Shown one piece after another: positions 1 through 22,674 of a DNA stretch of 22,674 nt; positions within the stretch are counted from its first letter, which is position 1, and each line of letters opens with the position of its first letter. The position numbers and the translations under genes were made by a program. The notes below the pieces were generated by a model, which worked only from the letters and a program-made list of their open reading frames with translations, ran no database searches and was not told the origin of the DNA. The stretch is taken from NCBI GenBank assembly GCA_009602725.1, contig WELB01000009.1, positions 386,591 through 409,264 of the forward strand, written 5' to 3'. The stretch comes from Spirogloea muscicola. Lineage: Eukaryota; Streptophyta; Zygnematophyceae; Spirogloeales; Spirogloeaceae.

Positions 1-200
1 GCTGCTGGCACAAGAGCTAGTCAATTGCCGTCCGGTATTCGAGCGTCAGCTAGCGACCTCTACGTGCTGACTCGTGGTTACTGAGCGGGTCAGCTTAGCA
101 GCAGGTGACGTACATTTGTCCAATGTGCTTGCCTTTGTACTTGGCCACACATGGCCTCCCCATCTCTTAATATACACGCATTTCCCCGCAGCCGCACATC
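1..200 (+). mobile_element. 3' end of a B-subfamily LINE-like element (copy B4)
   Basis: The window opens inside an ORF in frame 1 that ends SDLYVLTRGY and stops at 82-84. The same ending closes the B copies at 4534 (+), 5575 (-) and 7731 (+). The sequence after the stop (GTGACGTACATTTGT, then TGTGCTTGCCTTTGTACTTGG, read in part) matches the sequence after the B3 stop at 4535-4633. That stretch is therefore the element's 3' untranslated region. It contains a GGCCA-loop-TGGCC hairpin. The 3' boundary near 190-200 is approximate, and the 5' part lies outside the window. Confidence 0.7.
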
Positions 201-344
201 TACCAAACTTGCGCCTTCACTACTTTGTGACTTCCATTTTGACGAAGAAGAAGGCTCGCCCATTTGACGGGCTGACCGTTTCTCGTTTTTCCCAAGAAGG
301 GAAAACTTGGGGCCTTGTCCAGTCTTGAGTCAGCTCCATGGGCG

Positions 345-700
345 AGCACTCTTCATTCTGGAAGAAAGAAGGTGACAGCTCTTCATTTCGTAGCTGCTTT
401 GTTTCAGCCCTTCCAGATTTTGTACATTCCGTTGGGCTGGCCTCTCACAGCCATTGCCGTAAATTATAAGAGCTGTTTCTTTTCTTCTCTACAGTAAGAC
501 GATGGCTATGAGATGGCACTCTTCTCTATGGGCGAGCACTTCTTCTCTATGAGAGGCCAGTCCGGAAAGATTTGACAAGGTCCGAAATGGGCCGAAAAGC
601 GCTGACGTACACAAGCAATTACGTATGTAAGCAAGCCCAAAAAGGGTGAAATGGAAGAGCATGCCTCTCTTCCGTTCATGCGTTTGCCTCTTTTCCGCTT
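345..700. repeat. Scrambled hairpin-repeat fragments
   Basis: A plus-strand hairpin monomer lies at 435-452 (GGCTG, loop, CAGCC). A minus-strand fragment lies around 541-560 (GAGAGGCCAGTCC). The phrase ATGGGCGAGCACT that normally follows the hairpin appears near 340 and 528. These are degenerate pieces of the 3'-tail repeat described elsewhere. I see no gene in 200-1010. The ORFs there are short, lie in repeats and resemble nothing I recognise. Confidence 0.55.
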
Positions 701-1010
701 CCGCGGCGTTTGGTAAGTTCCACTTACGTGGCGCAGCGCACAGTCTCGGCTGCGCGCCCGCCGGCCCCGCCCCCGTGCCCGTGGGCTAGCTGCAAATGAC
801 GGAGCCGTGCCGATCAAGGCACAAATAATATGCGGCATATGTGGATCGGTGACAGACCGCGGTTTAGGGTCCCATGGCGGCGGTGGCTTGACCGACACGC
901 ACGCCCGCCGACACGAGGCCCCCAAACGGGCAGGAGGGGGGCGCCAGCCTGGGTGCTCACGTCAGGCGGCCACCAGGCGGGGCTCTCAATTCAGACTGGC
1001 GAGCGAACAT
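700..1010. other. GC-rich stretch without recognisable gene
   Basis: This GC-rich sequence contains no hairpin monomer and no recognisable coding signal. Two overlapping plus-strand ORFs cross it, but they run on into the repeat array, which argues against either being real. It could be a 5' or internal fragment of another mobile element. Confidence 0.3.
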
Positions 1011-1020
1011 GCCGCGCGTG

Positions 1021-1480
1021 CGTTGCTCTGGACTCCGTCGTCCTTTGTGCATTCTTTTACCTGGGCTGGCCTCTCCCAGCCACCGCTCTATGGGCGAGCA
1101 CTTCTCTCTCTTGGAAGCCGCTTTTCCAGCCCCTATCCTCAACTGGCGAGCAACTTTCTTCTTTCTCCTTCGTTCTTTTGGACTTGGACTTTCTGGGACG
1201 CTCTAACTCTTGAAGACCTGTTTCTCTGGGCTGGCCTTACACAGCTTTCCGCTGACATTGTCCATTCTTTCTGGGCTGGCTTTGCTGGCCCCCTTTCTCT
1301 ATGGGCGCGCCCTTTCTTTCCGCTGTCCGGCACCCCCGGACCTAGTCCTTATTTTCGGGCTGCTTTTCACAGCCCTCGCTCCACTTCCCTTTGGTTCTCT
1401 CTCTCTCTTTGGTCGAGCTTACCTTACTTTCACAGCCATCCACAAGTTTCAGGGGTGCAAAGGGCCAGCCCAAAAGAGTG
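1021..1480 (+). repeat. Cluster of hairpin monomers
   Basis: Clear hairpins lie at 1064-1081 (GGCTGG, loop CCTCTC, CCAGCC) and 1357-1375 (GGGCTG, loop, CAGCCC). Weaker ones lie near 1228-1247 and 1273-1290. A minus-strand piece is at about 1463-1475. Several are preceded by a CATTCTTT-type stretch and followed by ATGGGCGAGC-type sequence, the same order as in the 3' tail of the A-subfamily elements. Confidence 0.65.
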
Positions 1481-1494
1481 ACAGACATCTCCCC

Positions 1495-1570
1495 TTTTTG
1501 CTTGCCTTTGTACTTGGCCATTTGGCCTTCGTTTGTTTCAAATACACGAATTTTCCTTTTTTGGAGGAGC
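1495..1570 (+). mobile_element. Isolated B-subfamily 3' tail
   Basis: This carries the B-element 3' untranslated signature: GCTTGCCTTTGTACTTGGCC, then the hairpin GGCCA-TT-TGGCC, then AAATACACGAA followed by T-rich sequence. There is no ORF upstream, so it is an extremely 5'-truncated copy. A further hairpin start (TGGGCTGGCCTCTCA) follows near 1640. Confidence 0.6.
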
Positions 1571-1679
1571 TTCGTTCATTTGCTTTAGAAAAAGTTTCTA
1601 CTGGTCACTTCTTTTCTTCTACATATATCGTCCTTTCGTTTGGGCTGGCCTCTCATAGGTGATGTACTAGGAGGAAGAA

Positions 1680-2230
1680 TGAAGAGTAAGTTCCTGAGTT
1701 GCCCTCCCGGCGCCGCGACTCTGCGCCCCTCTTGCATAAGTCAGCATGGCCCGGCGCACTTGGCACTTAGGGGTCGCTCAGCAATAGCGGTTTGCTTAAC
1801 CACTTCCCAAGCTCCGCCTCGCCGGCCATTACTGACTAACATTAGCGCTAACACACGGCACTCAACCCATGTCAGCCTCCGTCACAGGAGCGCGGGGGCG
1901 GCTTCCCCGCAGCCCCACTGGCCTGACGTCAGCGGGACGGTGACCCCTGCCCTGACGTCACCCCCGCCTCGCTGACCTGGTGCACACGTGCACGTGGGAC
2001 CGCCCTCCTAGCAATAAACCTGCCGCCCAGCCCGTGTACGGCCGGGCGGCGTGATCAAAAGCGTGGACAAATGCAAGCAGGCATAGGAATCAAAAGCGTG
2101 AGCAAACGCTGGAAGGTCGACGCGTGTCGTGGCTGGCCGGCCTCCGACAGGCCGTCACGCTGTCAACGTCACGCAGCCCCCAGTATGCTGACGTCAGCGA
2201 TGGTGGGTGGCCGCATCGGCCTCAAGTGGG
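1680..2230. other. GC-rich intergenic block, not repeat-derived
   Basis: This 550-bp block lies between repeat clusters and has no recognisable ORF. It contains three perfect TGACGTCA palindromes, an overlapping CACGTG-type sequence near 1983-1997, and a 12-bp direct repeat ATCAAAAGCGTG at 2054-2065 and 2089-2100. It could be a promoter fragment, or the 5' regulatory region of a mobile element that lost its body. The sequence does not decide this. Confidence 0.35.
1924..2196. promoter_or_regulatory. Three perfect TGACGTCA (CRE/bZIP-type) palindromes
   Basis: TGACGTCA occurs at 1924-1931, 1953-1960 and 2189-2196. This 8-bp palindrome is the classical binding site of CREB/ATF and plant TGA-type bZIP factors. 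Three perfect copies in 273 bp is more than expected by chance. No transcription unit can be assigned to them. Confidence 0.35.
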
Positions 2231-2259
2231 CGTGACGGAATAACACAGCTTCTCTCTGT

Positions 2260-2503
2260 GGGCTCTGTGGGCATTCTTTTTGGGCTGGCTTTTCGCAGCC
2301 CTTGCCCCCATTGGGAGTGCCACTTCTTTCTTTCTGTTTCTCGACCAGTGTAAGGCAATTGTTGTGAGATTTGTTGGTAGAGTAGAGGAGTCCTTCCTCG
2401 GCATCTCATTCTTCGGCTTTGGACATTGTCCATTCTTTTTAAGCTGGCTTTGCCAGCCCCTCTTTCTCTATGGGCGAGCCTTCTCCTTCGTTTTCGCTCC
2501 GGC
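2260..2503 (+). repeat. Hairpin monomers flanking element A1
   Basis: Hairpins lie at 2282-2301 (GGGCTG, loop, CAGCCC) and 2443-2457 (GCTGGC, TTT, GCCAGC). The second is followed by TATGGGCGAGCC and then by CTCCGGC, the apparent target site of A1. Sequence resuming after A1 at 3185 (GACCTGGTCCATTCC, then GGGCTGG) continues the same repeat pattern. Confidence 0.6.
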
Positions 2504-3184
2504 GAAGAAAGTGCTCGCCCATTGAGAATAGGGGCTGGAACAACCAGCCCGAAAAAGAATGAACAGAGTACGAGAAGGGGGCCAGGGGAAGCGCTAAGTA
2601 ACAGAAACAAAGCTGCTACGAGACACTCAGTAACCCCTGCTAAGCAGCCGCAGATCAGAGATGCTGGGCTCCTGGAAGTGGGTCCCCTGGCCAGAGCCAG
2701 AGGCAGCAGCGAGGGCTCTGCCGGCACGAAGGTGCAGCGCCCGGGCCATGGACCTCTGCAGCGAGACGGCCAGGCGCATTCGATACACTTGCGCCAGCGA
2801 CCCGGCTGCAGGGAAGTCAACCGGCTCCCCATGGAAGCGCCGGGCGATGGTGTGGCGGGCGAGCTGGGTGAGCAGCTCGAGCCACCGAGCGCCCAGCGCC
2901 CCATGTGTGTCGATGGCCAACGGGAAGAACTCGTCTTCCCGCGGATGATCCGCGTACTTCAGCTCTTTGGCCCGAGCAGCGCAGGCGACCGCATACCCAG
3001 CCGTGGTGGCACATTTGGCTGGGTGTGAGCGGTCATAGGCATCAGTAGTCACCACGTCCAGGAGAAGACGTGGCCCGCCGGCCTGTCGGGTGGCCACCGG
3101 GTCTACACGCCTGGCATGGAGACCGTCGGCCCTGTGCTGGATTGGCATGATTCCGGAGTGCTCTGCTGCCACGGAGAAACCAGC
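2504..3184 (-). mobile_element. 5'-truncated A-subfamily LINE-like element (copy A1)
   Basis: This is the longest uninterrupted A copy. On the minus strand it has an ORF, a stop at 2627-2629, and about 120 nt of 3' sequence holding the GGGCTGG-loop-CCAGCCC hairpin (2532-2550). It ends in CACTTTCTT at 2505. CTCCGGC lies on both sides (2497-2503 and 3185-3191 allowing one base of uncertainty). This is a likely 7-bp target-site duplication. Without the insert, the flanks line up with the repeat at 1310-1365. The short target duplication, 5' truncation and absent LTR fit target-primed reverse transcription. There is no poly(A) tail. Confidence 0.65.
2627..3184 (-). pseudogene. C-terminal fragment of LINE-type ORF (copy A1)
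   Basis: About 185 codons are open without a stop. Visible segments in order are MPIQHRADGLHARRVDPVA, LLLDVVTTDAYD, CAARAKELKYADHP, EFFPLAIDTHGALGARW, and a helical stretch around YRMRLAVSLQRSMARALHLRAG, quoted in part, ending SDLRLLSRGY. The pattern D...T, then K..KY, then F.PLAIDT.GA.G resembles the C-terminal, possibly nuclease-like, region of reverse-transcriptase ORFs of green-algal non-LTR elements as I remember them. No reverse-transcriptase motif lies in the fragment, so the class is inferred. The 5' part of the ORF is missing and this copy cannot be autonomous. Confidence 0.55.
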
Positions 3185-3306
3185 CTCCGGCTCCTTCCTT
3201 CCGACCTGGTCCATTCCTTTGGGCTGGCCTTTCCCAGCCACCAGTCAATCTGGCCGCGCTTCTCTTTTGGGCTGGCCTCTCCCAGCCACCAGTCAATCTG
3301 GCCGCC
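3185..3306 (+). repeat. Two tandem hairpin monomers
   Basis: The 19-bp core GGGCTGGCCTCTCCCAGCC, or a one-base variant, occurs twice (3221-3239 and 3269-3287). Each is followed by ACCAGTCAATCTGGCCGC, which itself holds a small CCAG-loop-CTGG hairpin. The same longer unit recurs at 6897-6935, and a diverged form lies near 4930-4960. Confidence 0.7.
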
Positions 3307-3642
3307 CTTGTTGCTTGTGAGAGGCCAGCCCGGGAGAAATGAAAAGAAATAGCTCTTCCAGTAGAGGGTGATGGCTGTGATTGGCCAGCCCAGGAAAAGA
3401 GGGAACGAAGGAGATGAACAGACAAAGGGGCCGCCCATTGAAAAATAGGGGCTAGCAAAGCCAGCCCAGAAAAGACTGGACAATGTCCGCAGGCCTCAAA
3501 TGCCAAACGGAAGGACGCGGTGAGCTGGCCTTTCTTCTTCTTTGCCATAGACAGAGAGAGAGAGAAAGAAGCTCGCCCATATAGAGAGAGAGAGAAGGCG
3601 CGCGGGGCGCATGAATTGAAAGGGAGGCCAATTCAAGCCAAT
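3307..3642. repeat. Tandem duplication, copy 1
   Basis: This 336-bp block is repeated almost perfectly at 3675-4004. It holds three minus-strand hairpin monomers (near 3319, 3390 and 3440-3470), an AG-rich microsatellite, and the start of the GGCGCGCGGGGCGCATGAAT repeat. The only difference I see between copies is three extra AG units here. ORFs on either strand that begin MAKKKKGQ or MSSLFWAG are by-products of the repeat. Confidence 0.8.
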
Positions 3643-3674
3643 ACATTGTTCAGGCAGAGTCGAGTGCAGACTCG
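3591..3674 (+). repeat. GGCGCGCGGGGCGCATGAAT interspersed repeat
   Basis: This short element begins GAGAGAAGGCGCGCGGGG and continues through GAATTG...CAATTCAAGCCAAT to CAGAGTCGAGTGCAGACT. Further copies lie at 6975-7057 (+), partly at 3949-4004 (+), and at 8487-8550 (-, diverged). GAATTG and CAATTC can pair across a 10-nt loop. It has no coding capacity and I do not recognise a family. Confidence 0.6.
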
Positions 3675-4004
3675 CTTGTTGCTTGTGAGAGGCCAGCCCG
3701 GGAGAAATGAAAAGAAATAGCTCTTCCAGTAGAGGGTGATGGCTGTGATTGGCCAGCCCAGGAAAAGAGGGAACGAAGGAGATGAACAGACAAAGGGGCC
3801 GCCCATTGAAAAATAGGGGCTAGCAAAGCCAGCCCAGAAAAGACTGGACAATGTCCGCAGGCCTCAAATGCCAAACGGAAGGACGCGGTGAGCTGGCCTT
3901 TCTTCTTCTTTGCCATAGACAGAGAGAGAGAGAAAGAAGCTCGCCCATATAGAGAGAAGGCGCGCGGGGCGCATGAATTGAAAGGGAGGCCAATTCAAGC
4001 CAAT
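3675..4004. repeat. Tandem duplication, copy 2
   Basis: This is the 330-bp second copy of the preceding block, separated from it by 32 bp (3643-3674). It lacks six bases of the AG run. It ends at GCCAAT, where copy 1 continues into ACATTGTTCAGG. It then joins another minus-strand hairpin monomer at about 4005-4040. The near identity means a recent duplication or an assembly duplication. Confidence 0.8.
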
Positions 4005-4054
4005 CCATAGAGAAGGGGGCTAGCAAAGCCAGCCCATAGCATCTTCTGGCCCCT

Positions 4055-4633
4055 TTGTAGCTGCTACACGCTTGTAGCAGCTCTCCCGGCCGCAATTGAC
4101 CAGCATCTCTGATCTGCGGCTGCTTAGCAGGGGTTACTGAGTGTCTTGTAGCAGCTTTGTTTCTGTTACTTAGCGCTTCCCCTGGCCCCCTTCTCGTACT
4201 CTGTTCATTCTTTTTCGGGCTGGTTGTTCCAGCCCCTATTCTCAATGGGCGAGCACTTTCTTAATTGACACTTTCGGCTGCTTGGTTCCTCGCTTCCATA
4301 CCCTACTTGCGAACATAGCGAGTCTGGGATATGCTTCCAGCCCAGATGGGTATGCCGGCAGCCTATCCGTCATTTTTGCGACGTCGAGTGTCAGCTTGCC
4401 TGCAGCGAGCTCAGGCTCATGCGTTGCATCAGAAAGCTGGTCGAGCCTTGGCTGGTAGTTCAAGAGCTCGTCGATTGCCGTCCGATATTCGAGCATCAGT
4501 CAGCGACTTCTATGTGCTGACTCGTGGTTACTGAGCGGGTCAGCTTAGCGGCAGGTGACGTACATTTGTTAATGTGCTTGCCTTTGTACTTGGCCACACA
4601 TGGCCTCCCCATCTCTTGATACACACGTCTTTA
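4055..4633 (+). mobile_element. B-subfamily LINE-like element (copy B3), interrupted
   Basis: This 5'-truncated B copy has its stop at 4532-4534 and its 3' tail at 4535-4633. It appears inserted in a hairpin repeat: GCCCCT stands just before (4049-4054) and just after it (4634-4639). The outer flanks, joined, read as the usual CTGGCCCCT...CAATTCTTTTTGGGCTGG order. An A-subfamily tail sits inside it at 4101-4262. With that tail removed, the ORF reads LPAAIDTFGCLVPRFHTLL as in copy B2. A deletion near 4335-4345 shifts the frame before MGMPAAYPSFLRRR, so the copy is dead. Confidence 0.65.
4101..4262 (+). mobile_element. 162-bp A-subfamily 3' tail inserted in B3
   Basis: This segment starts in the last codons of the A ORF (SISDLRLLSRGY, stop 4138-4140) and runs through the hairpin GGGCTGG-TTGTT-CCAGCCC to CACTTTCTT. 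It is flanked on both sides by AATTGAC (4094-4100 and 4263-4269), an exact 7-bp target-site duplication. As a reverse complement it matches 2505-2666 of copy A1 at all but one of 162 positions. It is the youngest insertion that can be dated relatively here, and it fixes the element's 3' end. Confidence 0.8.
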
Positions 4634-5262
4634 GCCCCTCCGGTCCTTCGTCAATTCTTTTTGGGCTGGCTTTCCGCAGCCCTTGCCCACCTTGGAGTGC
4701 CACTTCTTCTTTCCACAGCCCTTGCCCCCATTGGGAGAGAAGTGGCACTGGGCTGCGATAATTGGGAAAGCCACTTCTCTCTTTCACAGCCACCGCCTTA
4801 GGTCGGAAGCGCTATTGTTGTTCCCGAAAGGAGGCTTGTCCGAGAACCTCTTGCTCATTCTTCAGTGGCCTCTAAGTAACCTCACTCGTAACTACTGAGT
4901 GGTCCATCCTCCCCCCGTCCTGACATAGCTTCCCAGCGACCAGGCAATCTGGCCGCGCTTTCCCCCTTCTTCAGGCCCCTTCGTAGCTGCTAAGCGCTTT
5001 TGGCCCCTTCGAACCTTTGTCAATTCTTTTCGGGCTGGCTGTTCACAGGCCTTGCCCCCATCGGGAGTGCCACTTCTCTCAGAGCCACTGCCCTTTCCTG
5101 GAAGCGTCTTTCCTTCTTCTGTGGGCTGGTTATACATTGCTTTCGCTGCTTCTTTGTGGTTGGCTTTTGGAGCATAAAGAGTCAGACGCTTCCAGGAGAG
5201 GCGGTGGCTGGGAGAGGCCAGCCCAGTGAATAGAATGAACAGGTTCGAAGGGGCCAGAGAAA
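4634..5262. repeat. Hairpin repeats in both orientations
   Basis: Plus-strand monomers lie near 4657-4681 and 5030-5060 (GGGCTGG, loop, CAGCCC or CAGG), with a partial one at 5124-5133. A minus-strand monomer is at 5203-5224, reading GGCGGTGGCTGGGAGAGGCC. A 12-bp perfect inverted repeat, AGTGCCACTTCT at 4696-4707 and AGAAGTGGCACT at 4738-4749, encloses a CAGCCC-bearing loop. The sequence GGCCCCTTCGAAC before the hairpin recurs here and at 6400, 6612 and 14604. No gene is visible. Confidence 0.6.
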
Positions 5263-5284
5263 TCCACCGGCTCCCCATTCCTTT

Positions 5285-6205
5285 TCTTAGAAAGAAAGGG
5301 CTCGCCCATTAAGGAGAGGGGCTGGACAAGCCAGCCCTAAAAAGAAAGGACAAAGTACGAGTAGGGGTCCAGGGGAAGCGCTAAGGAAAGCAAGCACAAA
5401 ACGAAGCATAGCTGCTACGAATCACTCAGTAACCCCTGCTAAGCAGCCGCAGATCAGAGAGGCTAGGCGCCTGGAAGTAAAAGATCGTGTATTAGAAAGA
5501 AATGTAGGCCAAATGGCCAGGTACAAAGGCAAGCACATCTAAAAATCTACATAACCTACAGCAGATTGACCCGCTCAATAACCACGGGTCAAAACATAAA
5601 GGTCACTACTCGATGCATGAATACTAGATGCCAGGAACGGAGCCCTTCTGCCACCTACTAGAGCTCGCCCAGCTTTCTGGTGCAAGGCACTAGCCTGAGC
5701 ACGCTGCAAACAGGCCGAAACTCGACGTCGCAAGAGCGACAGATATGCAGCTGGCAAGCCCATCTCAGCCGGAAACACATCTGCGCGTCGAGTGTAGCCT
5801 AGATTGGCAATGCTTTGAAGCAGAGTGTGGAAGCGAGGACCCAGACAGCCAAAGATGTCGATTGCAGCTGGCAGGAGTTGAATCCTGCCTGGAAGGGGGT
5901 CCCCTGGCCAGAGCCAGAGGCAGCAGCGAGTGCGCGGCCGGCACGAAGGTGTAGCGCGCGGGCCATAGACCGCTGCAGCGAGATGGCCAGGCGCATACGG
6001 TAGACTTGCGCTAGCGACCCAGCGGCAGGGAAGTCCACCGGCTCCCCATGGAAGAGACGGGCGATGGCGTGGCGGGCGAGCTAGTTGATCAACTCGAGCC
6101 ACCGAGCGCCCAGCGCCCCGTGGGTGTCAATTGCCAACGGGAAGAACTCGTCGTCCCGCGGATGGTCGGCGTACTTTAGCTCTTTTGCCCGAGCGGCGCA
6201 GAAAG
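5285..6205 (-). mobile_element. A-subfamily LINE-like element (copy A2), interrupted by B2
   Basis: This minus-strand A copy runs from CAARAKELKYADHP (near 6200) through EFFPLAIDTHGALGARW and the RMRLAISLQRSMARALHLRA stretch to FQ at 5888. It is then interrupted by a B element (5478-5886) and resumes as APSLSDLRLLSRGY with its 3' tail and hairpin near 5320-5340. The codon at 6081-6083 is an amber stop (CTA on the plus strand) where A1 has glutamine. A 20-bp stray A-ORF piece (GEPVDF) lies beyond its 3' end at about 5262-5280. The copy is non-functional. Confidence 0.65.
5478..5886 (-). mobile_element. B-subfamily LINE-like element (copy B2) inserted in A2
   Basis: This minus-strand insert is about 409 bp. 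Its ORF runs from QLLPAAIDIFGCLGPRF near 5880 through ANLGYTRRADVFPAEMGLPA and RRRVSACLQRAQASALHQKA to SDLYVLTRGY, with the stop at 5575-5577. About 97 nt of 3' tail follow, with the GGCCA-loop-TGGCC hairpin and AATACACGATCTTTTA at the end. GCCTGGAAG occurs on both sides (5469-5477 and 5887-5895). It matches A1 FFPLAIDTHGALG position for position, so A and B are homologous. Confidence 0.75.
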
Positions 6206-6240
6206 CGCTGAAGCACACAGGGAACCAGGGAGCTACGAAA

Positions 6241-6330
6241 CACTCAGTGACCCCTGTTGAGCAGCCGCTGGTCGGAGAAAGAAGTCTCCGAGTAGCGGGT
6301 CCCTTGGCCAGGCCCAGTGGCTGCAGCCAA
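6241..6330 (-). mobile_element. A-subfamily 3' ORF fragment (copy A4)
   Basis: The minus strand reads LAAATGPGQGTRYSETSFSD and then QRLLNRGH before the stop at 6244-6246. This is a diverged A ORF end. Upstream it is fused to a hairpin repeat. Downstream its 3' tail (GTCACTGAGTG, then TGCTTCAGCGCTTT) leads directly into the 5' end of A2 near 6205, so A2 probably landed in this tail. Confidence 0.6.
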
Positions 6331-6640
6331 TGTAGAGAGAAAGACGCTTCCAAAGGAGGGCGGTGGCTGGGAGAGGCAAGCCCAGAGAAGGGAATCAACG
6401 AGGTTCGAAGGGGCCAGGGAAAGCGCAATGCAGACCGGCACGCAGATGCAGCGCGCGTGTCCGGTGCAGCGAGACTGACAGGCGTGGACAATATACCTGC
6501 ACGAGACAGCCTGCTGCATAAGATTAGAGAGAAAGACGCTTCCAGGATACATGTATCCAAGAGAGGGCGGTGGCTGGGAGAGGCCAGCCCAGAGACAAGA
6601 ATGAACAAAGTTCGAAGGGGCCAGTAGAAAGAGAAGTGCT
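6325..6640 (-). repeat. Two hairpin-repeat units with an A fragment between
   Basis: Units at about 6327-6430 and 6527-6630 share GAGAAAGACGCTTCC, the GGCGGTGGCTGGGAGAGGC hairpin, and GTTCGAAGGGGCCAG, about 200 bp apart. Between them, at about 6430-6500, a minus-strand A-ORF scrap reads SVSLHRTRALHLRAG. The second unit contains a 14-bp palindrome, GGATACATGTATCC (6545-6558), that the first lacks. Confidence 0.65.
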
Positions 6641-6689
6641 CGCCCATAGAGAAGGCGCTCAAACACACAGGAAATCAAGTTGGCTTCAA

Positions 6690-6850
6690 AAATTTCTGTA
6701 ACTCCTACTAAGCAGCCGCAGGTCGGAGAAAGTAGTCCCCTGGCTAGGGCCAGAGGCTGCAGCTAAGGCACGACCGGCACGCAGATGCAGCGCGCGAGCC
6801 ATGGACCTCTGCAGCGAGATGGACAAGGGCATGCGAGATCGGAGTACGAG
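6690..6850 (-). mobile_element. A-subfamily ORF fragment (copy A3), stop codon lost
   Basis: The minus strand reads SISLQRSMARALHLRAGRAL, then AAASGPSQGTTFSDLRLLSRSY, quoted in part. At the normal stop position the sequence is CAGA rather than TGA, so the frame runs a few codons further to 6686. Both ends abut unrelated repeat fragments. Confidence 0.6.
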
Positions 6851-6884
6851 CATGCACTTCACTACTCTGGCTTCTTCAGACCTT

Positions 6885-6945
6885 GTCCATTCCTTTGGGC
6901 TGGCCTCTCCCAGCCACCAGTCAATCTGGCCGCGCTTTTCTATCA
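6885..6945 (+). repeat. Hairpin monomer with CCAGTCAATCTGG extension
   Basis: The order CTTGTCCATTCCTTT, GGGCTGGCCTCTCCCAGCC, ACCAGTCAATCTGGCCGCGC matches the pair at 3210-3305. The GGCGCGCGGGGCGCATGAAT repeat follows at 6975-7057. A minus-strand monomer with stem AGCTGGC-AAA-GCCAGCC lies at about 7095-7150. Confidence 0.65.
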
Positions 6946-7224
6946 TGCACTTCAGCAGCTTTATCAGGTGGGACGAGAGAAGGCGCGCGGGGCGCATGAA
7001 TTGAAAGGGAGGCCAATTCAAGCCAATACATTTTTCAGCCAGAGTCGAGTGCAGACTAAACAAGGCTACATAATACGGAGAAATACAAATGTAGAATGTG
7101 CTCGCCCATAGAGAAGAGTAGCTGGCAAAGCCAGCCCAAAAAGAATGGACAATATCCCAAGCCAAAGAAAGAGGAGCCGGAAAAGAACTACACTACAGTC
7201 CATGCCTTTGGACTAGGACGAAGA

Positions 7225-7990
7225 CAACAGCCAGAGGGGACCCACTTTCAGGACCCTAGCCTCTCTTAACCTGGTGGAGGACCACGGGCCCTGGTCGACG
7301 TTGTGGTAACGGAGGCGTACAAGGGACCAGCATCCACACACATCGCTGATCACGCAGTGGGCGTTGCAGAACAGAGAAAGCTGCAGCATTACTCCGACTA
7401 CCCTCAATGCGATCAGCTCCTGCCAGCAACAATCGTCGTCTTTGCTTGTCTGGGTCCTCGTTTCCACACCCTCCTCCAAAACATTGCCAATTTAGGCTAC
7501 ACACGTCGTGCAGATGTGTTTCCGGTTGAGTTGGGCTTGCCAGCTGCATATCTGTCTTTCTTGCGACGACGTGTTTCGGCCTGTTTGCAGCGTGCTCAGG
7601 CTAATGCCTTGCACCAGAAAGCTGGCCGAGCTCTAGTTGGTGGCAGAAGGGCTTCGTATCTGACATCTAGTATTCAGGCATCGATTAGCGACCTTTATGT
7701 TTTGACCCGTGGTTATCGAGCGGGCACTTTGCTGTAGATTATGTAGGTCTTTTGATGTGCTTGCCTTTGTACTTGGCCTTTGGCCTTCGTTTGTTTCAAA
7801 TACACGAAATTTTTCTTTAGCCTCTCTGATCTGCGGCTGCTTAGCAGGGGTTACTGAGTGATTTGCAGCTGCTTTCTTTCTTTGTGTGCTTTGTTTTCTT
7901 AGCGCTTCCTCTAACCCCCCTTCTCGTACTTTGTTCATCCTTTTTTGGGCTGGCTTTTCCAGCCCCTATCCTCAATGGGCGAGCCCTTCT
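7225..7990 (+). mobile_element. A-subfamily 3' end (copy A8), interrupted by B1
   Basis: The host sequence before the insert (GGGACCCACTTTCAGGACCC) matches the A1 ORF end GTHFQEPS. After the insert it continues TCTGATCTGCGGCTGCTTAG to the stop at 7855-7857. It then has the 3' tail and a plus-strand hairpin at 7947-7965, ending at ATGGGCGAGC...CTTCTCTC near 7994. With the insert removed, the frame reads HFQDPSLSDLRLLSRGY. Confidence 0.7.
7267..7817 (+). mobile_element. B-subfamily LINE-like element (copy B1) inserted in A8
   Basis: This 551-bp insert is flanked by TAGCCTCTCT (7257-7266 and 7818-7827), a 10-bp target-site duplication. Its ORF is open from 7270 and reads GPRALVDVVVTEAYK, then the charged Y.DYPQCDQLLPATIVVFACLGPRF region, and ends SDLYVLTRGY. 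The TGA stop seen in other B copies is CGA here, so the frame runs on to a TAG at 7735-7737. The 3' tail carries GCTTGCCTTTGTACTTGGCC and AAATACACGAAA. It is the most 5'-extended B copy here, but still lacks any reverse-transcriptase domain. Confidence 0.75.
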
Positions 7991-8001
7991 CTCGACGACG
8001 C

Positions 8002-8290
8002 TCAGTAACCTCTAGTCAGGAGATGCAAGTCGGAGTAGCTAGCCGGGGGAATGACGTCGCCCTGACGGAAGCCGGAGGCCGCCGCCAAAGCTCGGCCTGC
8101 GCGCAAGTGGACCGCGAACGCAAGGGACCGCTGAAGCGAGACGGCCAACCGCATGCGGAAGACGTGCGCGAGGGACCCGGCGACATTGAAGCCGGGCTGC
8201 TCGCCCTGCTGCCCGTGGCGGCGGGCCGCGGCCTGCTGCGCCAGGCGGTGAAGCAAGTCGAGCCACGTGGGACGAGGACCAGGAATTTCG
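8002..8290 (-). mobile_element. Third, diverged A-like ORF end (copy C)
   Basis: The minus-strand ORF reads GPRPTWLDLLHRLAQQAAAR, then VAGSLAHVFRMRLAVSLQRS, AVHLRAGRALAAASGFRQGD, and ends YSDLHLLTRGY with the stop at 8002-8004. It aligns along its length with A1 but differs enough, and in the linker, to be a separate subfamily. Only about 10 nt of 3' sequence remain before it meets the end of A8. At its 5' side it joins a B-type 3' tail. Confidence 0.65.
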
Positions 8291-8345
8291 TGTATTTGAC
8301 ACAAACGAAGGCCAAATGGCCATGTACTTGCCACTCTCTCTCTCT
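8278..8345 (-). mobile_element. B-subfamily 3' tail fragment
   Basis: On the minus strand it reads GGCAAGTACATGGCCATTTGGCC, quoted in part, then CTTCGTTTGTGTCAAATACACGAAA. This is the B 3' signature with its hairpin, immediately upstream of copy C. No ORF remains. Confidence 0.55.
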
Positions 8346-8349
8346 TTTT

Positions 8350-8866
8350 GATCAACTTTCCCGGCCCTCATTACCACCCCTGTCATCATCCCTTCTGCCT
8401 CTGCTGCTGCCCCACTCACCCCGCAGCTCCAGCAGTGGTCGTTTGATGGGTCAACAAGGCCCCCTTATCTTGGCGCTAGTTTTTGTCTGAACAATGTATT
8501 GGCTTGAATTGGCCTCGCTTTGATTTCATGCGCACCGCGCGCCTTCTCTCTTTTTGACGTCTGCTCTATCCGTCCAGTTCCTGATTTCAGCTTACTTTCT
8601 CACAGCCATTGCCAGCTGCACATCACGCCGACTTGCGGCTGCCGACTCGGGGTTACCAAGCTCTCAGTCGCTGTAGTCTCTTCCATAGCTGTGTGGTTTT
8701 TTGCGCCCATTGGCACCTTCAGACCTTTGTCCATTGCTTTTGGGCTGAATTTTCACAGCCCTCGCTTCCTTCGCTTATTTACTTGTCCATTGCCTTTCGA
8801 AAGCGCTTCTCTCGCTTGAGGCCGCCGCCCGCCGCCGCCCGCGCCGCGGCGGCGGCGGCGGCGGCG
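8350..8866. other. Intergenic, decayed repeats upstream of the DG1-like gene
   Basis: The region holds a diverged minus-strand copy of the GGCGCGCGGGGCGCATGAAT repeat (8487-8550). It also has a plus-strand scrap of an A ORF end (ADLRLPTRGY near 8628-8660) and one hairpin monomer at about 8737-8762 (GGGCTG, loop, CAGCCC). No gene is recognised. The promoter of the downstream gene must lie here or in the GC-rich block that follows, but I see no TATA-like element I would defend. Confidence 0.45.
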
Positions 8867-8874
8867 ATGGCGGC

Positions 8875-8951
<77 letters not shown>

Positions 8952-8952
8952 N
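8819..8952. repeat. CCG/CGG-rich inverted repeat, 75-T run and N
   Basis: A CCGCCG-rich stretch is followed by GCGGCGGCGG-rich sequence that can fold back on it. An ATG lies at 8867-8869 (ATGGCGGCGATT). Then come 75 consecutive T residues (8877-8951) and a single N (8952) before GC-rich coding sequence resumes. The abrupt change suggests a sequencing or assembly failure inside the first exon of the next gene. A genuine homopolymer, or the poly(A) of a minus-strand retrocopy, is possible but less likely. Confidence 0.6.
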
Positions 8953-11900
8953 GGCCCCTCCGAGGACGGCCGCCGCGCCGCGGCGCTGCGGCGGCTGCGC
9001 GCGCCCGAGGAGCCCCCCGGCCTCGCCGCTCTGGTCGCCAAGTACGCCGCAGCTCCGGCGGCGGGCACTCCTCCCACCGGGCCCGGCGTCAGCGACGGAG
9101 CTGCGAACGAGGCCGCGGCGGCGGAGCGGGCGCTCGCCGACCTCGTCGCCAGGCGAGTGCCTCGTCCTCAGCCGCAGCGTGGCATTGGACTTGTCATCAG
9201 TCACATTTAAATGAAGGGTTAAGGTTAGGGTTTGAAGTATGTGGGTTTAGGTTAGGGTTTGGGTTCAGGGGGTTTAGGGGTCAGGGTGTAGGCCAAAGCC
9301 GTTAGGGATGAGGGTTGAGGCTAAGGATTTAGGGGTTCATGGTTTAGGAGCTAGGGGGTTTAGGGGTCAGGGTTAAGGTCTCAGGGTTTAAGGTTGATGA
9401 CGGATTTAGAACACTGGTTTGAGGATGCACTCATGCGGTGTAGATCATGTAGGACGTGATACCATGGAAGGTGTAGAGGTCAGCATCTGAGATCATCTTG
9501 GGGATGGGTGTCTTGGGCTGTGCACTCAGGGGCAGTAACGTGAAACTCCTCAATCAAGAGGCTAGCTTTGCAGCACCTCAGATTTGCGGCAACAAAGCAG
9601 GCAAGCTCGACCATGCAGCTCCGTGCACCTACAATTTTGCGCCTTTGTCAGAGGGATCTTGGCTGCGCTTCCATGCGTCATGACCCTGATCCCATCTGGT
9701 CAAGTTTCTCCCGAGTACAAAGTGGCGAACTTGACTGCCAATCTAGCAGCTTCCTCGGTCCTCCAGTCCAGCATCCTAATCATTGCATGCAGAAGCTGGT
9801 GCTGGAGTATGAAGATTAAGGGCATAGCACTTGGTGCATAGCACTATAACTCAAGGATTAAGGTATTTCAAGTTGCAGGGTGAAGCCAAGGGTCTACCTG
9901 CTGTTGTGTTCCGCTTTGCATGTGCTAAACCCTACCCCTAAATCCTAACCCTTGGCTAAGCTCTTAACTTCTAACTCGTAACTTATAACCCTTAAGTCTC
10001 ATCTCTAGACCCCACGGAGCCCATGCTCATGAGCAGGCACTCGGTCATAGCTGCCGGTGTTCATGCCACTCAGTCGTGTGCCTTTGTCGTTTCACAGGCT
10101 TGCCGCCCTCCCGCAGGCCAAGGATGGCCGCACCTTCAGCGCAGAGGTGGAGGCGGCGGGGCTCGAGATGACGCCCGCACGTTGCGCCTGGACAGTGAAG
10201 CGCCTCGCTGAGGCAGGCTGCTGGCGGACGGCCATGGGATTTGTAGCCTGGCTCCAGGGTGGCAGGGGTCCTCTCTCCTCCATCGACAGGTACTAGGCTT
10301 CAGCAAGATCCCAGGGGTGCTTGTGTCAGAGCAAAGAAGCTGATCATGATCGCCGGTGTCATGAAGCTAACCATGAACTAAGGATCATGACGCTGAAGTC
10401 AGTATATGCATAATCTGGAAGTGTCATTTTGTCAGACCTTAGCTTGGCCTGCTTAAGGTGGCTTTGTTGCTGAATCCAGGGGTGTCTGCACGTCGCTGGT
10501 TGCCGCTCTGGGCCAGGCAAGGCGGCCTGCTGAGGCACTCCAGGTGTTTCGCTCGATGCTGGTGAGTTCTGGCTGCCCCCTGTGCTTAAGCACGTGGCAT
10601 GGAAGTGGTCAATGGGCATGAGCAGAGCAGGCCCTTGCAAGCATCATGAAGCAGTAACACTATCTGCAACTTCTTCCTGTTTCACACGTATCTGAAGGTG
10701 AACCATGACATTATTCAGGCAAGTCTTGAGCGTGCATCTATATAGTTCGGATAAATAGATTCTTGGGTAGTATGTCTAGGAGAAACTTCATAACAATAGG
10801 GTTCTACATGTGCACAGGATCACCCGAGAGCGTGGCCGGACCTGCCTGCGTACCACGCCCTCGCGGTGGCCCTCGGCCAGGCGGGCTGTCTGGACGATCT
10901 CCTCGAGGTCCTTGGCCCCTCTACCAGCTCTAGGATATGGGACTTCTCTTTGCCTTCACTTTAAGTCACATAAGGTACAACGAGCCTCCACATTTCCCCA
11001 GAATAGTTGATGTTCTTCTTCTGGACGGATGGTCTTGACGGCTCATCGTCCTGGAGCAGGTCATGGAAGAATTGCGTGGCAAGTCTCAAGGCCAGCTGGC
11101 CAACCCCAAGCAATTCATTTGCCAGCAGAATACCTTGCAGCCTGACGTAATTGTGTACAATGCTGTGAGTCATTTGCAGAAACATCATATCTGCATACAA
11201 TCATGTAAAATTCGTGCACTGTTGATGGCCATGATGATATATTCAAATGTTGGAAGCAATTGCTGCATATTCGCAAACTTTGAACCACCAAATTTATTAG
11301 AAGATCAAGATCAAGATCATATGTGGCCACTCATCTCTTGATGGATCTTGACATAGTGGTCACCTTAGCCGAGAGCTAAACAGGGCTCAGTCTGCACCAC
11401 AAGCTTGACGATCTTCTCTCGTTGGCCTCGAGGCTGAGCCCTTTGAACACAATGACGTATTCTTCTTTTGTTTGCTAGCTTTTCTCCATGGTTCACAGGT
11501 TCGTCGTGCAGTTGATGAGATCCAGAGTTTGTGGCTTCAGGTGCTCAATGCGTGTACCAGCCGCAGCAGATGGCAGTCGGTAGACTGGGTGTTTGCGAAG
11601 ATGGAAAGAGGCAAGCATACTCCAAATGCAGCAACGTACGGTCTTGCAATTGAGGTTGGCTATTGCATGGCCATCCCGGCCCCAGCTGGCCAGCTGCTCG
11701 CCCTCTTAACACATAAGATGCTGTGAGATATGCCAATGCCATCTGTTTCCGGTGGCACTGCCATCATCTGTGTAATTCATGTTCAAGTGTCTATCTAGTT
11801 AGGCGTAAGTGGAAGTATATCCAAGTGTAAGTTCATTCATTCATTCACAGTGAAGTCATGACAGGTATGAATGGTTTTACTAGACCTTGTACTAGACGAA

Positions 11901-17955: not shown

Positions 17956-20900
17956 GCCGGCGGCGCCGGCGTGGCGGAGCTGCGGCTGGACCACATAGTG
18001 GGGTTCCACGCGCCCACGCAGCTCAAGGCCCTGCTCGACGCCCGCTGCCTGCCGGTCATCGTCACGTTCAGGTGCGCTGCCCCAACACCTCTGCCGCAGG
18101 AATGCAAGTCTTAAGGTTTAAGAGGTTGAGGGTTCAGGGTTCAGGGTTTAAGGAGTTTAAGGGTTAAGGCTTTAAAGGTTAGGGGTTGAGGTTTGAGGTT
18201 GAGGTAATGTAGGGTAGGATTTTGGGTTCAGGTCACGGAGTCTGAGGTTATTCAGCAACTCGGCGAAGGTGTGATTATGCAAGTCTTAAGTATTTATGTT
18301 TTCGATTTGAGGCTGAGGTAAGGTAGGATAGGGTTTTGGGTTCAGGTCACAGAGTCTGAGGTTACGTATCAATGCAGCTCACGGTTCATGGCTGACGGCT
18401 GGGATTGCCGGCCTGGAGCAGGCCGACGTGGGAGGGCGGCCAGTACTCGGGGCCCGAGGAGGCTCGGCTGGAGGCGCTGCTGCAGGCCGTCGACCTCGGC
18501 GCCGACTTCGTGGACGTGGAGCTCCAGGCACGTGGTCCTCTGACTCCAGTGCCAGCATTAGAGTCCTTCACTTGAGGGTGGAGGGTTTGAGGTGTAAATG
18601 GGTCCAGTTCAGCAGCAAGTGGTAGGGCCCACCGCCATAGGCCACAGGCAAAGCTCAGTAGATAGCTTGAGACGTGCATAGGTTGGACCCAAGACCACCG
18701 CCTGGTGATACTCGCTGTGTTGACACTAGAGACTGGCAAAGTTCCTGAGACCCAGAATCTCCCCTTAATTTCCAATGAACCTGCAAACTTGCACTCGAGA
18801 TGTAGTTTCTGCACCATCATCTTTGTTGGTGAGTTAGCAACATCTCAACTTTCTTATAAGGTAGGGCATAGTTGACCGCAGGTGGCGAGCAGCTTCGTGC
18901 AGCGTGCAAGGGACATGATGGCCGCGCGGCCGGCCACGTCGCCGGCCACGCGGATCATCGTCTCCTCGCATAACTATGAGGCGACCCCCGACGACGAGGG
19001 CCTTGCGCGCCTCGTGGCCGACATCCAGGCCACTGGGGCTGACATTGTCAAGCTCGCGACCACGGCTGTGGACATCACCGACAATGCCCGCATCTTCTCG
19101 CTCCTGGGCCGCACGCAGGTAATCTTCTACCAGTGTGTGCTCATGCAGCCGGCACATCACTCAAGCCCTGCACCTGCAGCCCAGATCTGTAGTTTACATG
19201 GATTCTTAAGCCTGAAGCTTGGAGTCTTCCTCGAATTGCTGAGGCAGAAGTTCAAGCTTGAGCGCAAAGTATATTCTGTCACCATCTTTATTGGGTCAAG
19301 CTGGACAACATGATGCAGGCCAGTCACTCCTCGTAGGCTTATCTCCAACATGTTATCAGATCCTCAAACTCCACCTGGACCCTTCATACCTCTACCAAGA
19401 CATGACAACATGTCCACTTGTGCATGTGGTATCCACCACGTCTGGAATGCAGGTGCCCATGATTGCCCTCGTCATGGGGCCAAGAGGCCAGATCAGCCGC
19501 TTCCTCGCCCCAAAGTTTGGAGCGTTCCTCACCTTTGCTGCTTTGGACGCCGGGAAGGAGTCGGCCCCAGGGCAGTCGACGGTGTCAGAGCTCTCAACAG
19601 TGTACCGCTTGAGCCGGGTTGGCAGGGACACAAAAGTCTTGGGGTTGATTGGCAACCCTGTCAGCCACAGCAAGGGGCCCGTGCTCCACAATGCTGCCAT
19701 GACCAGCACAGGCTACAATGGAGTCTATGTGCCTTTCCTGGTGGACAATGTTGCTTCCTTCTTGAAGACGTTCGACTCGCCTGACTTTGCAGGATTCAGG
19801 TCAGAGTACACAGACAGGACAAGCCCATTAGGTTGACGTGGCACGTAGAAGAGCAGCTGTCCTTAGCCTTGCGCAATACCTGCACATATCCGTCTAGCTT
19901 ACAGCATTGCTATGCTATACTTCATTTCTTTAGGTGTCTAGGTTTGTCTTGAGTACGCTGTTGCCATGATCTCACAGGCCTGTTACTGAGGTCTGTTTTT
20001 GTCTTGGCAATGCTCCAGCAATGAGAGCTGGGCTGACCTTGACCATGGGGTTCCTCTTGCGGCAGCGTGACAATACCTCACAAGCTGGCAGCTCTCCAGG
20101 CCTGCGATGAGGTTGACCCAGTCGCCAAGGTACCCTTCCAATGTTGTCGGTGCTAGCATGTTACCGAGGCTTACACCCGAATCTAGCAGAAAGTGATACT
20201 TCAGTAATACTAGTATAGGCAGTACCACTGTTAGCACTGTCTGGCATTTGCATGCATACGTACACATCTTGTTGCCTATCGTCTGTAGGAGACTGCCAGT
20301 GAGTGCATTTCATTCTTGCTTGCTGACATCGAAATAGACGTTACTCTGAATCACATGCGGTTGGGGTTACAGGCCATTGGAGCAGTGAACACGATTGTGC
20401 GAAGGCCTGAAGACGGCAAACTTGTTGGCTACAACACGGACTGGGAAGCAGCCATCTGCGCGATTGAGGATGGCCTCCGAGCTGCTGAGGGATCAAGTGC
20501 AGGTCACATAAGCTACCTCGGAACCTACATATAGAAGGAGTCAGCAAAGCAAGCCTTGCAAGAGCAGAGATAAATGTCATTGGGTTACATTAGAGCCTTT
20601 CTTTGCCTCCTCAGAGCTTACCTACAAGCCTTTCTTGAGTTAAACTCAAGTATTGGTAGTTGTATCCATCTTTTTGATTCTTTGTCATAAGTTCGACTAA
20701 TTGCTCTTTGCAGATCCATCACGAGCTGGTAGATATGGGTATCTGGTATCAATGCATGCTGTTGCGTGCTCTTGTGAGAGTTGGAGGATTTACTAGTCCA
20801 AGTACCCAGCTCCATCGGTCGAAATCAAGCAATGAGCTACACAGGATGCGTTTGACTACCTCACCAGTCCATGTCCAACTCTGACCTTTCCCAATGTCTC

Positions 20901-22659: not shown

Positions 22660-22674
22660 GGGGGGGGGGGGGGG
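22660..22674. repeat. Poly-G run at the window edge
   Basis: Fifteen consecutive G residues end the window and may continue beyond it. This may be a genuine homopolymer or a contig-end artefact. The sequence shows no more. Confidence 0.6.

Follow-up and report, generated by a model that had tools for sequence, protein, structure and literature searches.

Nested LINE-like repeat copies in a repeat-rich segment of Spirogloea muscicola DNA

The window and its repeat heap

The window, i.e., the whole stretch of Spirogloea muscicola DNA that was analysed, is 22,674 bases in length and belongs to a eukaryotic nuclear genome. Positions 1 to ~9,000 are densely filled with repeats, referred to below as the heap. 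Pfam analysis of the window shows PPR repeats at 12.7–13.2 kb and an arrangement of type I dehydroquinase and shikimate dehydrogenase in gene pieces at ~18.9–21.3 kb. Fusion of dehydroquinase and shikimate dehydrogenase is typical of plants and green algae. Of nine open reading frames compared with Pfam, four come from genes and match gene domains; the five that lie in the repeat heap have no match at E up to 1. Near genes, at positions 9200–9400 and 18120–18360, there are degenerate GGGTTTAGG/GGGTTCAGG-like repeats that resemble plant-type telomere repeats. A 75-base T run ending in N (8877–8952), a single N in GC-rich sequence (14992) and a G run at the end of the window (22660–22674) look like weak points of the assembly.

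Two related repeat families, termed A and B, are found in the heap. Comparisons of A, B and the host tail described below are all internal to the window. Copies of A have a common 3' end and vary in length from 681 bp (A1) and 162 bp (A2) to several tails of ~60 bp. Copies of B likewise share a 3' end, with lengths of 551 bp (B4) and 409 bp (B2) in addition to short B tails at 1499 and 8284. The two families encode homologous C-termini ending in SDL--L-RGY; identity to A1 is 38% for B4 as well as for B2, and a four-sequence alignment has 27 invariant columns. Matches were absent in searches of the B2 and A1 proteins against viral_contigs, of the B2 protein against genome_contigs, of B2 by tblastn against plasmids and of A DNA against phages. 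Pattern searches were also empty, with the B tail in genome_contigs and viral_contigs and with the A pattern in viral_contigs.

The copies and junctions referred to in the text are as follows.

2504–3184, minus strand: A1, the longest A copy found in the window, 681 bp, 5'-truncated, with an exact 7-bp repeat at both ends
4042–4078, plus strand: left part of the host, a probable A-clade tail cut by B3 (the hairpin repeat of the first-pass annotation), 31 of 37 bases matching 4968–5004 without gaps
4075–4078, plus strand: putative target-site duplication TAGC of B3, 5' copy, from the gapless junction against 4955–5110
4079–4631, plus strand: B3, a 5'-truncated B-family element that holds A2 and one AATTGAC, from alignments with B1, B2 and B4
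4094–4100, plus strand: target-site duplication AATTGAC of A2, 5' copy, an exact repeat
4101–4262, plus strand: A2, a 162-bp 5'-truncated A element with the last codons, the 3' untranslated part and the hairpin tail, identical to A1 at 161 of 162 bases
4263–4269, plus strand: target-site duplication AATTGAC of A2, 3' copy, an exact repeat
4632–4635, plus strand: putative target-site duplication TAGC of B3, 3' copy, from the empty-site alignment
4636–4707, plus strand: right part of the host, a probable A-clade tail (4630–4707 is 82% identical to 4999–5077)
4968–5077, plus strand: uninterrupted copy of the host tail, with GCCCCT internally at both 4975 and 5003, from the joined-flank alignment
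5478–5886, minus strand: B2, 409 bp, inserted in the A copy A3; joined flanks compared with A1 show no gap at the site
7267–7817, plus strand: B4, 551 bp, inserted in the A copy A4; joined flanks compared with A1 show no gap at the site

A 175-aa open reading frame on the minus strand (5575–6102) looks like an artefact of nesting, in which A3 in another frame is fused to the coding end of B2.

The A2 copy within B3

The first-pass annotation had described a 162-bp A tail inside B3 between exact copies of AATTGAC, and the coordinates, the end of homology and the match to A1 all agree with this. The heptamer AATTGAC is present only twice on the plus strand of the window, at 4094 and 4263 (its reverse complement occurs five times). 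Positions 4101–4262 differ from the reverse complement of 2505–2666 in A1 at a single base, 4147. Homology to A spans 4100–4262 and stops at 4262, the base preceding the second AATTGAC, and the reading of the exact repeat at both ends of A2 as the target-site duplication of the A element is supported. When 3000 random pairs of points were drawn from the repeat-rich part at the spacing of A2, with ±3 bp slack, 17 had an exact repeat of at least 7 bp. With 4000 pairs the fraction was 0.0005, 0.004 and 0.00925 at a slack of 0, 2 and 5, respectively. In the 3000-pair trials, genuine repeats of this part are counted as well, which tends to inflate the chance estimate.

Removal of A2 and one AATTGAC restores a sequence that aligns with B2, as had been proposed. 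The joined flanks match B2 without gaps at 51 of 72 bases around the site, where B2 has a single AATCGAC as the target, and they encode the peptide ALPAAIDTFGCLVPRFHTLL in frame with B2. The restored frame had been taken as evidence against chance repeats; the restoration itself is seen, but its weight was overstated, since it follows once 169 bp are removed, with length modulo 3 as the sole determinant. To the DNA match it adds a coincidence of no more than one in three. A separate deletion of ~17 nt is present in B3, and beyond it the match to B2 runs in another frame, so that B3 in its present form is broken independently of A2.

Transfer of A2 from nearby A1 by gene conversion, recombination or filler-DNA repair, without retrotransposition, was also considered. 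The near identity of the two copies and their proximity (A1 is inverted and ~1.4 kb away) would fit such a transfer, and an exact 283-bp tandem duplication shows that local rearrangement has occurred. However, A2 interrupts an otherwise continuous B copy, ends at the 3' terminus common to A1 and is flanked by an exact 7-bp duplication; these three features are marks of target-primed insertion and are not needed for filler DNA. We therefore consider such a transfer highly improbable, and insertion of A2 as a retroelement is preferred. The tandem duplication consists of 3307–3589 and 3675–3957, which are 368 bp apart; beyond them, a GA run differs slightly in length between the copies, of which the second ends near 4004. 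It represents a recent duplication or an effect of assembly.

The host tail and the boundaries of B3

The outer boundaries of B3 differ from those first proposed, where GCCCCT at 4049 and 4634 was read as the target-site duplication and B3 as starting at 4055. The match of 4042–4078 to 4968–5004 runs without gaps across the proposed junction at 4054/4055. Positions 4055–4078 match 4981–5004 at 19 of 24 bases, a level reached by none of the 45,208 other 24-mers on the two strands of the window, and this segment belongs to the host tail. Left and right host matches overlap at 4999–5004 of the uninterrupted copy, which places the insertion point of B3 there. When 4078 is joined to 4636, the alignment with 4955–5110 has no gap at the junction. 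The joined flanks are 82.7% identical to 4968–5077 over 110 columns, with 18 mismatches and one gap, and the first 100 positions align ungapped with 79 identities.

The alignments place B3 at ~4079–4631, and the best candidate for its duplication is TAGC, which is four exact bases and weak. The length of TAGC is not significant, with 526 of 3000 random pairs reaching 4 bp; a longer version, TGTAGC at 4073–4078 versus TTTAGC at 4630–4635, matches at five of six bases. In this respect the GCCCCT reading has an advantage, for the motif is present at both 4049 and 4634 and an exact repeat of at least 6 bp at that spacing is uncommon (49 of 3000 random pairs), far rarer than one of 4 bp. However, the uninterrupted copy has both motifs internally together with the stretch between them, and a join at the GCCCCT junctions leaves a hole relative to that copy. 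This is the outcome that the first-pass annotation had itself named as refuting its reading, GCCCCT as ordinary internal residues, and it is provided by a copy within the window. GCCCCT occurs 14 times on the plus strand of the window and 15 times on the minus strand. Together with the 24-base match described above, these results leave GCCCCT as the flank of B3 with hardly any probability, and the TAGC boundaries are used in what follows. The earlier statement that the nest was resolved to the base holds for A2; for B3 the ends are ambiguous by a few bases, with the 3' end at 4629–4631. The evidence for the B3 site is the empty-site alignment, for which a single uninterrupted copy is the basis.

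When the host tail is aligned with A2, A3 and A4, all have the ATTC-TTTT block, the hairpin and the GGG-GAGC-like block, and the order is conserved. The closest resemblance downstream of the hairpin is among the host tail, the tail near 2282 and the uninterrupted copy. These likenesses suggest that the host hairpin repeat is itself probably the 3' tail of an A-clade element, and the nest would then read as A in B in an A-clade tail and not as three unrelated repeats. The left host match is only 37 bp, one uninterrupted copy is known in the window, and in related tails the similarity often fades upstream near the B3 site, so that the host could be composite.

The three layers are borne out by the alignments of A2 within B3 and of B3 within the host tail. 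The order that had been given, hairpin repeat, then B3, then A tail, agrees with the nesting and with the identities of the layers. These are 82.7% for the host versus its uninterrupted copy, 90.4% for B3 versus B1 (178 columns) and 99.4% for A2 versus A1; they are pairwise identities and not dates, and the relative ages that they give are in agreement with the order. B3 is only ~73% identical to B2 and B4.

LINE-like properties and insertion habits of A and B

Three other insertions have exact duplications. A1 is flanked by CTCCGGC at 2497–2503 and 3185–3191 (11 of 3000 random pairs), B2 by the 9-bp GCCTGGAAG at 5469–5477 and 5887–5895 (7 of 3000) and B4 by the 10-bp TAGCCTCTCT at 7257–7266 and 7818–7827 (6 of 3000). 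Target-site duplications of variable length are thus found, exact at 7 bp for A2 and A1, 9 bp for B2 and 10 bp for B4, with that of B3 being weak. Empty sites are gapless at the junction in four cases, A2/B3, B3/host, B2/A3 and B4/A4. In both families, the copies end at the same 3' terminus and are truncated at differing 5' points. Taken with the duplications of 7–10 bp, this pattern is consistent with the target-primed reverse transcription of LINE-type elements; insertions nested in this way and LINE tails of this type are well documented.

A and B share with non-LTR LINEs in general the common 3' ends, the variable 5' truncation, the 7–10-bp duplications and the nesting, but differ in that a reverse transcriptase or endonuclease domain was not found in six-frame Pfam scans of positions 1–9200 (RVT, E up to 1). 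With 681 bp (A) and 551 bp (B) as the greatest copy lengths, the part that would encode reverse transcriptase is missing, and the copies are called LINE-like only. The term retroelement, used from the start for this nest, is a fair inference that the domain scans of 1–9200 do not bear out directly. The sole six-frame matches in 1–9200, UPF0524 (E 0.0016) and ETRAMP (E 0.00014), are below their own cut-offs and are read as composition-driven. Pfam gave no match to A1 or B4 at E up to 10, and a PDB sequence search with B2 was likewise negative. PDB matches of a four-sequence profile (E 1.4 and 4.6) are not credible. A suspected restriction-like endonuclease region upstream in A1 received no support from Pfam, PDB or structure prediction; the AlphaFold model of the A1 C-terminus (mean pLDDT 44.3, pTM 0.29) is too poor for fold comparison. 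Long terminal or terminal inverted repeats were not noticed by eye at the ends of the 5'-truncated copies A1, A2, B2 and B4.

A conserved inverted repeat, GGGCTGG...CCAGCCC, is located near the 3' end. The folding z value is -4.1 for the A2 tail, -0.6, -1.4 and -0.4 for the other three A-clade tails and -1.9 and -1.2 for two B tails. Secondary structure was analyzed with 25 tails picked by eye, 24 of which are among 82 pattern matches; the remaining one (2412–2486) is there only as a reverse reading. The set leaves out the tails near 3699, 3759 and 3835 (all three in the second tandem-duplication copy), a few weak tails near 563, 1228, 1471 and 5123, reverse readings of the same hairpins and matches in gene regions or other sequence. 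RNAalifold gave no consensus pair for the 25-tail alignment. With a subset of 11 tails, 10 of them distinct, nine pairs are predicted; none is changed on both sides and none represents the GGGCTGG/CCAGCCC hairpin. A named two-stem structure pairs in 75.1% of cells, versus 31–52% when slid by 1–3 columns. In the 10 distinct tails, not one of its 17 pairs has a compensatory change on both sides; pairing is just as good in 492 of 500 shuffles, and covariation is likewise no better than in shuffles. There is no Rfam match at the gathering score.

Mean best identity among the 25 tails is 0.72 in the hairpin and drops upstream to 0.48 (-30 to -10), 0.42 (-50 to -30) and 0.38 (-70 to -50). The tails near 1273, 2441, 3467 and 7137 have similar starts, each with GGACATTGTCC-like sequence immediately 5' of the hairpin; the starts of other short tails are GGCCCCTTCGA-like. 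Such recurrent starts could reflect SINE-like units or an enzyme that halts at the hairpin foot. The upstream parts are only loosely related, and a SINE-like origin has some, if low, probability for the shortest tails: the short hairpin tails, A2 excepted, would be non-autonomous elements with a 3' tail taken from A, and not truncated A copies. The many copies of only ~60 bp with a tail in common, the drop in similarity, the recurrence of the two kinds of start and the start of seven of 20 A1 BLAST rows at A1 612–620 (one being the tandem-duplication copy) are in favor of this. Chlamydomonas SINEX families have tails in common with RandI LINEs (PMC3747384). On the other hand, the last A codons are part of A2, the starts of A1, A3 and three further copies (6223–6327, 6735–6836 and 7997–8208) lie elsewhere in A, enzyme stops at the hairpin foot would yield the same recurring starts, and a tRNA search was negative. 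On balance, SINE-like elements are an unlikely source of the short tails, and truncated A copies are the preferred reading.

The RandI/Dualen clade is defined by reverse transcriptase phylogeny and by paired APE and restriction-like endonucleases. In PMC3747384, RandI tails are given as (ATT)n and (CTATTT)n and the SINEX-2_CR tail as (CTTT)n, and the non-poly(A) tails here, CTTTCTTC at the end of A1 and CTTTCTT at that of A2, are similar in kind to those of RandI/Dualen LINEs and SINEX. This likeness is a lead only. LINEs of the stringent type with a 3' stem loop, also treated in that paper (PMC3747384), are resembled in the conserved GGGCTGG...CCAGCCC near the 3' end and in the z value of the A2 tail. 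Differences are the lack of compensatory changes among the 10 distinct tails and the z values of the other A-clade tails (-0.4 to -1.4) and of the two B tails (-1.9 and -1.2).

The reading that best fits these results, and which we hold with considerable confidence, is that A and B are two related LINE-like (non-LTR) families whose 5'-truncated copies were inserted reciprocally through target-primed reverse transcription, in the order host, B3, A2. An A-clade tail (4042–4078 plus 4636–4707) received B3, with a duplication of approximately TAGC, and B3 later received the very young 162-bp A2, with the duplication AATTGAC. The alignments show the homology and order of the layers, their boundaries and duplications, and the empty sites. 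A LINE-type reverse transcriptase would start at the shared 3' tail and stop early, which would account for the 5' truncation, and A and B may have been active families of the same host.

The sequences beyond the 3' junctions of B3 (4632–4641, TAGCCCCTCC) and B4 (7818–7827, TAGCCTCTCT) are similar. A target preference of B is possible; B2 departs from it, with CTTCCAGGC on its own strand. B2 and B4 are inserted in their A hosts at A1 coordinates 506 and 520, ~14 bp apart, and the homology of A2 starts at A1 position 518, a coincidence with the B2 and B4 sites that was noticed post hoc. The coincidence of the B2 and B4 insertion sites and the 5' end of A2 at A1 506–520 could be due to chance. 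That A and B home on each other, with the shared spot as a possible nicking or pausing hotspot for both families, is very unlikely; if true, the heap would be self-feeding and neighbouring genes could be spared.

The region represents ordinary LINE-like nesting and ordinary genome wear, and the corrected boundaries of the B3 layer do not change the general understanding of such nests. Four exact duplications and four empty sites are enough to define the 3' ends and the insertion habits of A and B. The nesting is reciprocal, with A in B once and B in A twice, in addition to B3 in an A-clade tail. This suggests that the two families were active over overlapping periods, so that neither can be called older as a whole.
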